This document shows, piece after piece, positions 6,707 to 10,219 of a stretch of DNA of 36,379 bases (positions are counted from its first letter, which is position 1; each line of letters starts with the position of its first letter). The stretch lies in the NCBI GenBank assembly GCA_017464225.1, contig JAFUDW010000139.1, forward strand, positions 1 through 36,379, given 5' to 3'. A program made the position numbers and the translations under genes. The stretch is from Clostridia bacterium. Its GTDB lineage: Bacteria; Bacillota_A; Clostridia; Christensenellales; Aristaeellaceae. A model generated the notes under the pieces. That model was given only the letters and a program-made list of their open reading frames with translations. It was not told the DNA's origin and ran no database searches.

Positions 6707-7654
6707 ATGACAATTCAACAGCTCAATTATGTGATTCATATTGCGGAATGCGGTTCTTTTAACCGGGCGGCGGAAAAGCTGTTTGTGGCGCAGCCTTCCC
6801 TGACAGGCGCGATCAAGGATTTGGAAAGAGAAACTGGCATCACCATCTTTAACCGCACCGGAAAAGGCGTGACGCTGACGGCTGAAGGCGCGGAATTTTT
6901 GCCTTATGCGCGGTCTGTGTATGATCAGTTTCAAAACCTGCTGGATGCCTATGGAAAAAACGGCGTGCGAAAACAGAAATTCGCGGTATCCATGCAGCAC
7001 TATTCCTTTGCGGTCAAGGCTTTTGTGGAATTGACCCGGGCCTTTGACGTGGGCGAATATGAGTTTGCCGTCCGGGAAACCAGAACCAGGGATGTGATCG
7101 CCGACGTGGCGGCTGCCCGCAGTGAGATCGGCATTTTGTATCTGAACGATTTTAACCGAAAGGCGCTTCTAAAACTGTTCAATGAAAACAATTTGCAGTT
7201 TCAGCATTTGATCGATTGCGCCGCCTACGTCTATCTGTGGAAGGATCATCCATTGGCAAAAAACAGCAGCATCTCCTTTCAAGATCTGCTGCCCTACCCC
7301 TGCCTGTCCTTTGAGCAGGGCGAGGGAAGCAATTTCTATCTGGCGGAGGAGATCCTTTCCACCAACGAATATCCCCGGATCATCAAATGCTGCGACCGGG
7401 CCACCGTGCTGAACCTGATGGTGGGCGTAAACGGATATACCCTGTGCAGCGGCATCATCTGCGAGGAACTGAACGGCGGAGATTATATCGCTATTCCCTA
7501 TCGGGATGAAAAGAGCGCACCGGACAGCACGATGGAATTGGGGCTGATCACGAGGAAAAACCATATTCTTTCTCCTGCCGGGGCGCGCTATATAGAAGAG
7601 CTGAAAAAATACCTGGGAATCGAGGAGGTACAACATGCCCATTCGGATCAATGA
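6707..7654 (+). CDS. LysR-family transcriptional regulator
   Basis: 315-residue LysR-type regulator. The N-terminal winged helix-turn-helix (about residues 1-60) shows GSFNRAAEKLFVAQPSLTGA, followed by a linker helix and a periplasmic-binding-protein-like co-inducer domain (about 90-300). The start at 6707 has AAAGGAG at a good distance. Its last 20 bases overlap metA, so the two are co-transcribed and probably translationally coupled. Dyads with T-N11-A spacing before its own operon, metY and dpp suggest that it controls sulfur amino-acid supply, as CysB/MetR/CmbR-like proteins do. The co-inducer cannot be read from the sequence; O-acetylhomoserine, O-acetylserine or homocysteine would fit the context. 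Confidence 0.93.
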   Translation: MTIQQLNYVIHIAECGSFNRAAEKLFVAQPSLTGAIKDLERETGITIFNRTGKGVTLTAEGAEFLPYARSVYDQFQNLLDAYGKNGVRKQKFAVSMQHYSFAVKAFVELTRAFDVGEYEFAVRETRTRDVIADVAAARSEIGILYLNDFNRKALLKLFNENNLQFQHLIDCAAYVYLWKDHPLAKNSSISFQDLLPYPCLSFEQGEGSNFYLAEEILSTNEYPRIIKCCDRATVLNLMVGVNGYTLCSGIICEELNGGDYIAIPYRDEKSAPDSTMELGLITRKNHILSPAGARYIEELKKYLGIEEVQHAHSDQ

Positions 7655-8555
7655 AGCCATGCCCGTGGTTCAAAGGCTGCGGGAGGAGCAGATTTTTGTC
7701 ATTCCGGAAAGCCGGGCGGCAGCCCAGGATATCCGAACGCTGGAAATCGCCATCCTGAACATCATGCCGGATAAGCAGGAAACGGAATTGCAGCTGCTGC
7801 GTCTCCTTTCCAATTCTCCCCTGCAGGTGCGCGTCACCTTCCTGCGGCTGGATTCCCATCGGTACAAATATACCTCCGAGGAATATTTGGCGCGTTATTA
7901 TCGGGCGTTTTCCGACATTCGCGATCAATGCTATGATGGGTTGATCATCACCGGCGCGCCGGTGGAAAACTTGCCCTTTGACCAGGTGGATTATTGGCGG
8001 GAGCTTTCGGATATCTTCGCGTGGAGCAATACGCACGTTACCTCCACCGTCTATATTTGCTGGGCGGCCCAGGCGGGGCTCTATTATCATTACGGCATTG
8101 AAAAGCATGCGCTGCCGCGAAAGCTGTCCGGCGTATACCGGCACCGCACCCTGTACCGTGATGAAAGCCTGACCCGTGGATTCAACGATATTTTCCACGC
8201 GCCGCATTCCCGCTATACCGGCGTCCATCGAGCGGATATCGAAAAAACGGACAGCCTGACTGTCCTGGCAGATTCAGAAGACGCGGGCGCATACCTGATC
8301 CAGGATAAAGCCAAAAACAGGATTTTTATCACCGGGCATCCCGAATACAGCCGCATGACCCTGGCAAGGGAATACTTCCGCGACGTGGGGAAAGGCCTTG
8401 ATCCAGCTGTGCCCATCCGCTATTTTGAGACGGATGATCCGCTGAAGGAGCCCATCTTCCAGTGGAAAGCCCATGCGTACCTGCTGTTTTCCAACTGGCT
8501 GAATTATGCGGTGTATCAGGAAACTCCCTATGACATCAGCACAATAAACCTATAA
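7635..8555 (+). CDS. metA: Homoserine O-acetyltransferase, MetA family
   Basis: Acylates homoserine as the first committed step of methionine synthesis. 306 residues. The catalytic triad is visible at the family positions: Cys142 (YICWAAQ), His235 and Glu237 (TGHPEYSR). Residue 111 is Glu (GAPVEN), the known determinant of acetyl-CoA rather than succinyl-CoA use in MetA enzymes, so the product should be O-acetylhomoserine despite the common 'succinyltransferase' label. That matches the O-acetylhomoserine sulfhydrylase encoded next. Ribosome-binding site GAGGAGGT lies inside the end of lysR. The stop codon overlaps the LysR-type dyad of the next unit. Confidence 0.95.
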   Translation: MPIRINEAMPVVQRLREEQIFVIPESRAAAQDIRTLEIAILNIMPDKQETELQLLRLLSNSPLQVRVTFLRLDSHRYKYTSEEYLARYYRAFSDIRDQCYDGLIITGAPVENLPFDQVDYWRELSDIFAWSNTHVTSTVYICWAAQAGLYYHYGIEKHALPRKLSGVYRHRTLYRDESLTRGFNDIFHAPHSRYTGVHRADIEKTDSLTVLADSEDAGAYLIQDKAKNRIFITGHPEYSRMTLAREYFRDVGKGLDPAVPIRYFETDDPLKEPIFQWKAHAYLLFSNWLNYAVYQETPYDISTINL

Positions 8556-8565
8556 ATCCGATAGG
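8549..8565. promoter_or_regulatory. LysR-type operator before metY
   Basis: CCTAT-N7-ATAGG (8549-8553 and 8561-8565), the same dyad and spacing as at 6485, overlapping the metA stop codon. It is followed by TATAAT at 8573-8578 without a good -35, and 29 bases further by CGTATTGGAC (8594-8603), a 10-mer also found in the dpp promoter region (14318-14327). The second copy can serve as a -35 (TTGGAC) with a weak TAAGAT at 8623-8628. Which start is used is unclear. Confidence 0.55.
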
Positions 8566-8658
8566 TAAAAGCTATAATTATACATCGGTCTTTCGTATTG
8601 GACAATCAAATGCGGATTGAATTAAGATAGAAACCAATCAACGAAAGGAGGCTGGACC

Positions 8659-8715
8659 ATGAGAAATCACGCCCTGAGATTTATTTCACTGGTTCTGAGC
8701 CGCAATCGAATGTGA
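8659..8715 (+). CDS. Leader ORF before the tRNA-Cys-like element
   Basis: An 18-codon ORF with a strong ribosome-binding site (AAAGGAGG, 8644-8651). It is Arg/Leu rich, ends in Arg-Asn-Arg-Met and stops at UGA (8713-8715), one base before the 5' end of the tRNA-Cys-like element. Immediately after the stop the same frame reads TGG TGC TGT (Trp-Cys-Cys) and stays open to a TAA at 8824. The string from 8710 matches 13 of 16 bases of the Met-Cys-Met-Cys-Cys region of the dpp leader (14407-14422), so this may be a diverged member of the same leader family. Function is inferred from position only. Confidence 0.6.
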   Translation: MRNHALRFISLVLSRNRM

Positions 8716-8716
8716 T

Positions 8717-8880
8717 GGTGCTGTGGCCAAAGAAGGTCACCGCTTGCGGTGACGAGCGAAAGCAAATGCCTGCATTTGCCGAGCGAAGCCTCGCGTCATG
8801 AAATGAGGAGAGGCCGATCCAGGTAAGGCCAAGGTCTGCAAAACCTTTATTCCCCGGTTCGATTCCGGGCAGCACCTCCA
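8717..8880 (+). tRNA. tRNA-Cys(GCA)-like element with a structured ~90-nt insertion in the D-loop
   Basis: Acceptor strands 8717-8723 (GGTGCTG) and 8870-8876 (CAGCACC) pair perfectly; discriminator T and encoded CCA end at 8880. The D-stem is GCC (8726-8728) with GGC, the anticodon arm is AAGGT-CTGCAAA-ACCTT (anticodon GCA, Cys), and the T arm is CCCGG-TTCGATT-CCGGG. U73 and GCA are bacterial tRNA-Cys identity features. The D-loop, normally about 9 bases, contains an extra ~90 bases (about 8731-8820) that fold into hairpins 8736-8753, 8762-8779 and 8788-8814. The first two are followed by the linker CGAGCGAA (8753, 8780). It could be an interrupted real tRNA, a dead tRNA, or a tRNA mimic acting in the metY leader; the perfect stems argue against decay. 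Confidence 0.7.
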
Positions 8881-8914
8881 ACTTATAGAAAAGAAGATCA
8901 AAGGAGATAGAACC

Positions 8915-10219
8915 ATGTCTGATATTAAGAATTCCGCCAACTGGAGCTTTGAAACCAAGCAATTGCACATCGGCCAGGAGCAGGCTGATCCCGTTACCGA
9001 TGCCCGTGCGGTGCCGATTTACGCCACCACCTCGTATGTGTTCCATAACAGCGAGCATGCTGCGGATCGCTTTGGCCTCAGGGACGCCGGCAATATTTAC
9101 GGCCGCCTGACCAACCCCACCCAGGGCGTATTTGAGGCCCGCATCGCGGCCCTGGAGGGCGGCAGCGCGGCGCTGGCGGTGGCCTCCGGCGCGGCGGCCA
9201 TTACCTACACCTTCCAGGCGCTTGCTAAGGCGGGTGAGCACATTGTGGCCTCCAAGACCATCTACGGCGGCACCTTCAATCTGCTGGCCCATACCCTGCC
9301 CCTGACCAGCAGCATCACCACCACCTTCGTGGATCCCGATGTGGAAGGCAGCTTTGAAAACGCCATCCAGGAGAATACCAAGGCTATTTTCATCGAGACC
9401 CTGGGCAACCCCAATTCCAACATCATCGATATTGAAGCTGTCGCCAAGATCGCCCACTCCCACGGCATCCCTCTGGTTGTAGATTCCACCTTTGCCACGC
9501 CTTACCTGGTGCGTCCTATTGAATACGGCGCGGACATCGTGGTGCATTCCGCCACCAAATTCATCGGCGGACACGGCACGGCCATCGGCGGCGTGATCGT
9601 GGAGGGCGGCAAATTCGATTGGAAGGCCAGCGGCAAGTATCCCTGGATCAGCGACCCCAACCCCAGTTATCACGGCATCTCCTTCTATGACGCCGTGGGC
9701 CCCGCCGCCTTCGCCACCTACATCCGGGCCATCCTTTTGCGGGATACCGGCTCCACCCTGTCTCCCTTCCACGCCTTCATCTTCCTGCAGGGGCTGGAAA
9801 CCCTGTCCCTGCGAGTGGAGCGGCATGTGGAGAATGCCCTCAAGATCGTGGAATATCTTTCCAAGCATCCCCAGGTGGAGGCGGTGCACCATCCCGCTCT
9901 GGAGACCGAGCCCAGCCACAAGCTGTATCAAAAATACTTCCCCAACGGCGGCGGCAGCATTTTCACCTTTGAAATCAAGGGCGACAGCGATACCGCCAAG
10001 AAGTTCATCGATAACCTGGCTATCTTCTCCCTGCTGGCCAACGTGGCGGACGTGAAATCCCTGGTGATCCACCCCTTCACCACCACCCACAGCCAGCTGA
10101 CTGAGGAGGAACTGCTGGATCAGGGCATCAAACCCAACACCATCCGTTTGTCCATCGGCACGGAAAATGTAAACGATCTGATCGCTGCCCTGGAGGCTGC
10201 TTTTGAGGCGGTCAAATAA
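8915..10219 (+). CDS. metY: O-acetylhomoserine sulfhydrylase
   Basis: PLP enzyme of the Cys/Met metabolism family (434 residues) that converts O-acetylhomoserine plus sulfide, or a sulfur-carrier thiocarboxylate, to homocysteine. The PLP lysine is Lys215 in HSATKFIGGHG, and the substrate-binding C-terminus has the family pattern RLSIGTEN. The long middle insertion with NPSYHGI is typical of O-acetylhomoserine sulfhydrylases rather than cystathionine gamma-synthase. Ribosome-binding site AAAGGAGAT precedes ATG 8915. It lies 34 bases after the encoded CCA of the tRNA-Cys-like element, so processing of that element would give the metY mRNA a new 5' end. It forms an operon with the transporter and ridA downstream. 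Confidence 0.95.
   Translation: MSDIKNSANWSFETKQLHIGQEQADPVTDARAVPIYATTSYVFHNSEHAADRFGLRDAGNIYGRLTNPTQGVFEARIAALEGGSAALAVASGAAAITYTFQALAKAGEHIVASKTIYGGTFNLLAHTLPLTSSITTTFVDPDVEGSFENAIQENTKAIFIETLGNPNSNIIDIEAVAKIAHSHGIPLVVDSTFATPYLVRPIEYGADIVVHSATKFIGGHGTAIGGVIVEGGKFDWKASGKYPWISDPNPSYHGISFYDAVGPAAFATYIRAILLRDTGSTLSPFHAFIFLQGLETLSLRVERHVENALKIVEYLSKHPQVEAVHHPALETEPSHKLYQKYFPNGGGSIFTFEIKGDSDTAKKFIDNLAIFSLLANVADVKSLVIHPFTTTHSQLTEEELLDQGIKPNTIRLSIGTENVNDLIAALEAAFEAVK

Follow-up and report, generated by a model that had tools for sequence, protein, structure and literature searches.

An accessory tRNA-Cys gene in a Clostridia metY leader, very probably interrupted in its D-loop by a dispersed three-hairpin repeat

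The stretch of DNA analyzed here (the window, 36,379 nucleotides of a contig from a Clostridia bacterium) very probably carries an accessory tRNA-Cys(GCA) gene in the leader of metY, after a conserved upstream open reading frame (uORF), with one 88-nt copy of a multi-copy repeat inserted in its D-loop. The repeat was identified and its boundaries were placed, and a canonical tRNA-Cys remains when it is left out. Related genomes have complete tRNAs (CAU anticodon on a Cys-like body) or tRNA remnants at the same place in the leader. The host is a rumen-type gut bacterium, and the extra tRNA-Cys gene occupies part of the control region of a gene for methionine synthesis. The interrupted form has been seen on this one contig. 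The features of the locus are collected in Table 1.

Read from the sequence, the element is a tRNA-Cys(GCA) in which none of the four arms is missing and CCA is encoded. The acceptor stem (8717-8723/8870-8876) has 7/7 pairs, the anticodon stem (8831-8835/8843-8847, with GCA at 8838-8840) has 5/5, and the T-stem (8853-8857/8865-8869, with T-loop TTCGATT) has 5/5. The D-stem is GCC/GGC at 8726-8728/8827-8829, with a possible fourth pair at 8725/8830. U73 is present, CCA occupies 8878-8880, and U8, A14, and G18-G19 are retained (tRNA numbering). The insert lies after position 16 and before G18-G19, which we take to be the part of the D-loop that varies in length. The cloverleaf, GCA anticodon, U73, and consensus T-loop are those of a tRNA-Cys; the D-loop, with its 88-nt insert, is neither uninterrupted nor of ordinary length. 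The minimum free energy fold of the element (-64.8 kcal/mol, z -2.9, with 1 of 200 shuffles equally good) is a cloverleaf with three hairpins in the D-loop, where a longer D-stem is gained at the cost of one anticodon-stem pair. On the whole window ARAGORN missed the element and reported a tRNA-Ala elsewhere as the sole tRNA; without 8733-8820, it reports a 76-nt tRNA-Cys(gca). The Rfam tRNA model (RF00005) matches 8810-8870 only, with 33 bits. We also observed that the GGCC at the 3' end of the repeat (window 8812-8815) can substitute for the tRNA's own GGCC as the 5' strand of the D-stem. The Rfam model picks this repeat-derived strand, and the two folds may compete.

Table 1. Features of the metY leader region and its flanking genes in the window
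Feature	Coordinates	Strand	Evidence
metA-like homoserine O-acyltransferase, precedes the leader	7635..8555	+	NCBIfam NF047918, 449.3 bits, slightly below the cut-off of 460.5
ATAG-N7-CTAT dyad, candidate LysR-type box (inferred)	8561..8575	+	sequence; similar dyads before metY leaders of relatives, by eye
Probable promoter TTGGACA ... TAAGAT	8598..8628	+	scan match TGGACA/TAAGAT 9/12 (scan found 2 sites vs 1.1 expected); TTGGACAA in many relatives, by eye
Leader uORF MRNHALRFISLVLSRNRM*, ending CGA AUG UGA	8659..8715	+	sequence; strong SD AAAGGAGG at 8644-8651
tRNA-Cys 5' part: acceptor strand, D-stem 5' strand, D-loop start	8717..8732	+	sequence; fold; ARAGORN without insert
Inserted three-hairpin dispersed repeat	8733..8820	+	R2 model, 83.7 bits; copies in other genomes; covariation
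tRNA-Cys 3' part: D-loop GG, D-stem 3' strand, anticodon arm, T arm, acceptor 3' strand, U73, CCA	8821..8880	+	sequence; Rfam; fold; ARAGORN without insert
metY, O-acetylhomoserine sulfhydrylase	8915..10219	+	TIGR01326, 609.9 bits, above the cut-off of 495.1

The insert is composed of three hairpins (8736-8753, 8762-8779, and 8788-8814), and CGAGCGAA is present at 8753 and at 8780. When the leader was used as a BLAST query against 200 genomes treated as relatives of G001, it matched tRNA-Cys genes, one leader, and four short stretches (one in G051, two in G132, and one in G009) that correspond to nothing but the insert. All four fetched copies match the window insert along its full length, linkers included. 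The order within the repeat is hairpin 1, linker GACGAGCGAcAGC, hairpin 2, linker GCCGAGCGAAGCC, hairpin 3, and GGCCGA (with variants). Both G132 copies are in tandem, near an ORF that by eye resembles a MobA/MobL relaxase. A covariance model, R2, was built from these four copies and the window insert. It matches the window at exactly 8733-8820 (83.7 bits, model positions 1-88 of 88), a result that is partly circular, as the window is one of the five seeds. Leaving out exactly the R2 span restores the canonical 76-nt tRNA-Cys. No further R2 copy was found in the rest of the 36-kb window. In 84 loci (1.3 Mb, including 80 metY loci) R2 matched its five seeds and nothing else; the repeat is therefore no general feature of metY neighborhoods.

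Elsewhere, in a set of 200 genomes treated as relatives of G132, R2 had matches at E <= 1e-4 in 22; three of these genomes (G333, G365, and G378) had at least 22 matches each, and tandem runs of copies were seen in some genomes. The contexts of 20 copies were mixed, and 9 of these overlap no ORF of at least 120 aa. Of 200 relatives of G001, 2 contain an exact repeat pattern, which G001 and G003 themselves, both near relatives of the window, lack. As judged from these matches, the family is diverse in sequence, and its abundance is established for some relatives of G132 and not for the window's nearest kin.

Covariation was assessed on 36 distinct rows, derived from 46 matches in 34 sources and including the seeds and overlapping fetches. 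Paired cells made up 93.0% of the total, compared to 76.2% in column shuffles, and compensatory change on both sides was seen in 15 of 19 pairs, compared to 7.8 in shuffles. The covariation score was 0.389 against 0.087 in shuffles (0 of 500 as high), in an alignment that was fitted to the R2 model and is thus biased towards that model's structure. Shifting the partner strand abolishes the signal. Hairpin sequences vary freely among copies while pairing is kept; in hairpin 3, columns 73/121 fail to pair in 25 of the 34 rows with letters there. The insert family is a structured dispersed repeat with strongly covarying hairpins. In L238-L267 (for example, G378:C33:41364-41872), linker bases also seem by eye to change jointly, CTAGCGA occurring with GCGTAG and CGAGCGA with GCGAAG, with some exceptions. 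These joint changes hint at a linker-linker contact.

The original prediction described a tRNA-Cys-like element with GCA, CCA, paired arms, and a three-hairpin insert in the D-loop, and the sequence, the fold, and ARAGORN without the insert all agree with it. Its estimate of about 90 inserted bases becomes 88 nt, the linker repeats at 8753 and 8780 are confirmed by sequence reading, and 34 bases do separate the tRNA 3' end (8880) from the ATG of metY (8915), the downstream gene being an O-acetylhomoserine sulfhydrylase. Its interpretation of the insert is not supported. It had seen no match to an intron class known to it, had listed a spliced or tolerated interrupted tRNA among its options, and had taken the perfect stems as a sign of selection; the insert is instead a copy of a dispersed repeat with many copies at unrelated sites (22 of 200 genomes, mixed contexts), the very kind of mobile element at random sites that it had named as pointing to a disrupted tRNA gene. 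An intron of unknown class is ruled out by the copies elsewhere and their covarying hairpins, and no new class of tRNA intron is needed. No Rfam intron family was found at E <= 5 in 8540-8930, and tRNA was the sole Rfam family to reach its cut-off for the insert and leader region. The insert had no match in plasmid or phage collections (E <= 1), which speaks against phage or plasmid sequence, and two exact patterns found nothing in IMG/VR. A clear target-site duplication was not seen by eye around the insert, and an empty-site allele of the same species was not found. BLAST with the leader in 200 relatives of G001 found no second genome with an interrupted tRNA.

The uORF that precedes the tRNA is widespread. 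With its SD sequence and CGAATG, it was found in 54 of 80 metY loci of related genomes and was absent in 26; CGAATG itself occurs in 56 of 80 metY upstream windows, compared to 95 of 1,600 random windows. Among 54 aligned uORF tails, the window's included, the Arg codon is CGA in 54/54 and Met follows in 54/54; these tails were chosen by CGAATG, and the codon preference is therefore read from an unbiased search for any Arg-Met in such ORFs, which gave CGA in 54 loci and CGG in 2 (one of these also has CGA). The codon after CGA-AUG is Cys in 26 tails, UGA in 18, and another in 10, with no UAA or UAG. Other positions of the uORF show synonymous variation, so the ORF looks coding. It commonly ends in (S)xNRM, with CGA-AUG followed mostly by UGY or UGA, and from its sequence it may be an arrest or attenuation peptide for sulfur amino acids. 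Six uORF peptides had no NCBIfam match, the string SRNRM returned one HIV paper only, and in the titles and abstract openings of open-licence literature we found no publication on the uORF, the leader tRNA, or the repeat.

A 26-base uORF pattern (up to 3 mismatches) was found in 14 of 300 relatives of G003; of its 16 occurrences, 5 have a CAU tRNA after them. The uORF also precedes a MetQ-like lipoprotein gene (L145), an msrA-like gene (L154), and ABC binding-protein genes (L014 and L149), all named by eye, and since it stands before several sulfur-type genes, it may be a sulfur regulon leader. A T-box or SAM riboswitch was found neither at the Rfam gathering cut-off in the window nor at E <= 5 in 8540-8930, which speaks against a riboswitch or T-box in the leader. 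L149 (minus strand) has, by eye, a second uORF rich in Met and Cys (MRKNMMCRAQMYMCMMAMCSLCVR...) together with a terminator-like hairpin; the SRNRM-type uORF, the CAU tRNA, and a gene resembling a branched-chain-type ABC binding protein lie downstream of these.

A Cys-derived tRNA recurs in the uORF leaders of relatives. The original prediction had called for a search of related genomes for the fold before metY; tRNAs indeed recur there, in leaders of sulfur amino-acid genes, and BLAST with the leader did not find the interrupted form again. Complete leader tRNAs with a CAU anticodon occur at seven loci, six before metY (L003, L004, L008, L153, L158, and L208) and one before an ABC binding-protein gene (L149). 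In all seven, the tRNA 5' end lies exactly 3 nt beyond CGAATG; in the window the distance is 4 nt. The Cys-like body bears U73 in 6/7 (G in L008), CCA is encoded in 4/7, and L008, L149, and L158 have lost one or two of the upper anticodon-stem pairs. The changed base in these tRNAs is position 13 by standard numbering, not A14.

A geometric test for an acceptor and T arm was applied to 55 uORF leaders, consisting of 49 metY leaders (the window included) and six added loci, four of which were added for carrying a tRNA; five uORF loci were left out. Twelve leaders were positive and 43 negative, and 0 of 100 shuffles were as good as the positives. The positives comprise eight complete tRNAs and four remnants (L001, L006, L012, and L013) in which the acceptor and T stems survive and the loops are changed. 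L010, with a weak match (27.5 bits) to the leader-tRNA covariance model R1, was negative. Pairs were counted in a set of 12 made up of the seven CAU tRNAs, the lone tRNA-Cys of L006, and the four remnants. Paired cells amounted to 95% in the acceptor, 97% in the T, 86% in the anticodon, and 81% in the D stem, and only 4 pairs showed a double change, a number reached in 115 of 500 shuffles. Selection on the leader tRNA stems is suggested by these sequences.

R1 was run on 400 genomes treated as relatives of G012; among the matches listed, leader-type scores (>100 bits) occurred in 4 genomes, and most matches were of ordinary tRNA strength, 78 bits or less. On the window, R1 gave 35 bits at 8781-8880, covering the part 3' of the insert. 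With the L004 tRNA as query in 13 genomes, all 6 matches at E <= 0.1 sit at leaders. G003 has a leader tRNA, three other CAU tRNAs, and a housekeeping tRNA-Cys; the three other CAU tRNAs rule out, for G003, that the leader tRNA is the genome's only elongator tRNA-Met. In a MetY tree of 40 rows, the tRNA-bearing leaders were weakly resolved, a pattern that would fit one origin of the leader tRNA or several. Two side observations concern these loci. L153 and L208 show, by eye, an approximately 30-nt tandem duplication of the tRNA 3' acceptor strand and trailer between the leader tRNA and metY. L003 and L001 both come from assembly JAFUZM01 (G001, 5.0 Mb), where one metY locus has a CAU leader tRNA and the other, different one has a remnant; this MAG may be a mixture.

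The arms of the window tRNA are most like those of a lone tRNA-Cys before metA in L006, L013, and G022, which is 75/75 identical among the three (L006, 8724-8798; L013, 7162-7236; G022:C4:15436-15510). The window tRNA and the pre-metA tRNA-Cys share a 5' end sequence, GGTGCTGT, and a 3' end sequence, CAGCACC; none of ten other tRNA-Cys genes compared has these ends. The locus with the closest MetY (L001, 96%) bears a remnant that by eye has a GCA-like anticodon region. Because of these shared arms and ends and the GCA-like remnant, the window gene is probably a member of a tRNA-Cys lineage of met loci that is distinct from the housekeeping copy; in relatives, the housekeeping copy sits in a Val-Asp-Phe-Gly-Cys cluster. 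The lone intact pre-metA tRNA-Cys is seen together with a leader remnant before the following metY.

Taken together, comparison with the repeat family suggests that the repeat arrived in the D-loop by insertion. This insertion may be recent or tolerated, as the length-variable D-loop site and the self-folding hairpins leave the four tRNA stems paired. The interrupted copy would no longer supply normal tRNA-Cys, a loss presumably made harmless by a housekeeping tRNA-Cys elsewhere, such as the one seen in relatives, and RNase P and 3' enzymes may still cut the transcript at the tRNA ends. Against an insertion that killed the gene long ago stand the perfect stems, which are unexpected in a long-dead pseudogene. 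It is very unlikely, in our estimation, that the interrupted tRNA is still functional and delivers Cys, either spliced in vivo or tolerated with an extended D-loop. Such a role would agree with the pairing of all stems, with the retention of U8, A14, G18-G19, TTCGATT, U73, and CCA, and with an insert placed where the D-loop varies in length; it fits poorly with a dispersed repeat found at many unrelated sites, with the lack of an Rfam intron match at E <= 5, and with there being a single example.

Alternatively, the leader tRNA could be a regulatory processing signal for metY, a reading that is unlikely on balance. A ribosome paused at the uORF end (CGA-AUG-UGY/UGA) would cover the tRNA 5' strand; once it departs, the tRNA would fold, RNase P and 3' enzymes would excise it, and the metY mRNA released in this way would be altered in stability or translation, with the window's repeat carried along because it folds separately. 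The fixed spacing from CGAATG (3 nt in the seven CAU leaders and 4 nt in the window), the acceptor and T stems that persist in four remnants despite changed loops, and the uORF-tRNA pair before the ABC binding-protein gene of L149 all point in this direction. However, covariation is modest among the 12 tRNAs (4 double-change pairs, with 115/500 shuffles as many), most uORF leaders have no tRNA (43/55 negative), and the remnants look like decay. It is distinctly unlikely that, more generally, in a group of gut Clostridia a ribosome on the conserved uORF gates a processing switch in sulfur-regulon leaders, the switch being a cis-encoded tRNA derived from tRNA-Cys that in some species has acquired a Met anticodon, and that the window's switch carries the 88-nt D-loop repeat and would still fold. 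If the leader tRNA were regulatory, tRNA processing would be used as a gene switch in cis. The thrS leader is a precedent for a leader that mimics a tRNA, and by analogy the leader tRNA might mimic tRNA-Cys or tRNA-Met, bind a synthetase or other tRNA-binding protein, and sense amino-acid status. The anticodons GCA and CAU do correspond to the two sulfur amino acids and to the codons at the uORF end, but we regard mimicry as highly improbable: the CAU leaders join a Met anticodon to a Cys-type U73 (6/7), upper anticodon-stem pairs are broken in 3/7 of them, and the CCA encoded in the window and in 4/7 CAU leaders suggests excision rather than mimicry. The complete leader tRNAs of relatives would keep the mimic and cleavage-signal options alive for the family, less so for the interrupted copy. 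Besides the favored reading of a repeat inserted in an accessory tRNA-Cys gene, two subjects are worth study: the multi-copy, strongly covarying three-hairpin family, whose window copy has no Rfam match, and the sulfur-regulon leader with its conserved uORF and Cys-derived tRNA (Cys or Met anticodon) at a fixed distance.

Among known systems, allo-tRNA or selC-type tRNA-Cys has a 12-bp acceptor branch arranged as 8/4 or 9/3 (PMC7609411); the window tRNA, with 7/5 acceptor/T arms, falls outside this type. With the housekeeping bacterial tRNA-Cys(GCA) of the Val-Asp-Phe-Gly-Cys cluster it shares GCA, U73, the short D-stem GCC/GGC, and the T arm, whereas the window's copy is solitary, lies in an mRNA leader after a uORF, and has a D-loop interrupted by 88 nt. 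Bacterial dispersed hairpin repeats (REP/BIME-like and MITE-like) are short, self-complementary, and present in many copies, in tandem runs and at many sites. The R2 family resembles them in all of these respects and differs in its three distinct hairpins, conserved linkers, strong covariation, and lack of a matching Rfam family. Group I introns in bacterial tRNA genes are larger, self-splicing, and usually located in the anticodon loop; the insert likewise interrupts a tRNA gene, but it is 88 nt long, sits in the D-loop, and matches no Rfam intron. T-box leaders and peptide attenuators are amino-acid-responsive leaders of Met/Cys genes, and the window leader also precedes such a gene, but it has no T-box or SAM match, and its tRNA is part of the leader itself (in cis) rather than a ligand bound in trans. 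Finally, tRNA-mRNA cotranscripts such as E. coli tRNA-tufB and metY(tRNA-fMet)-nusA similarly have a tRNA gene and downstream protein genes on a single transcript, whereas the window leader has one atypical tRNA abutting the conserved uORF of a putative sulfur regulon.
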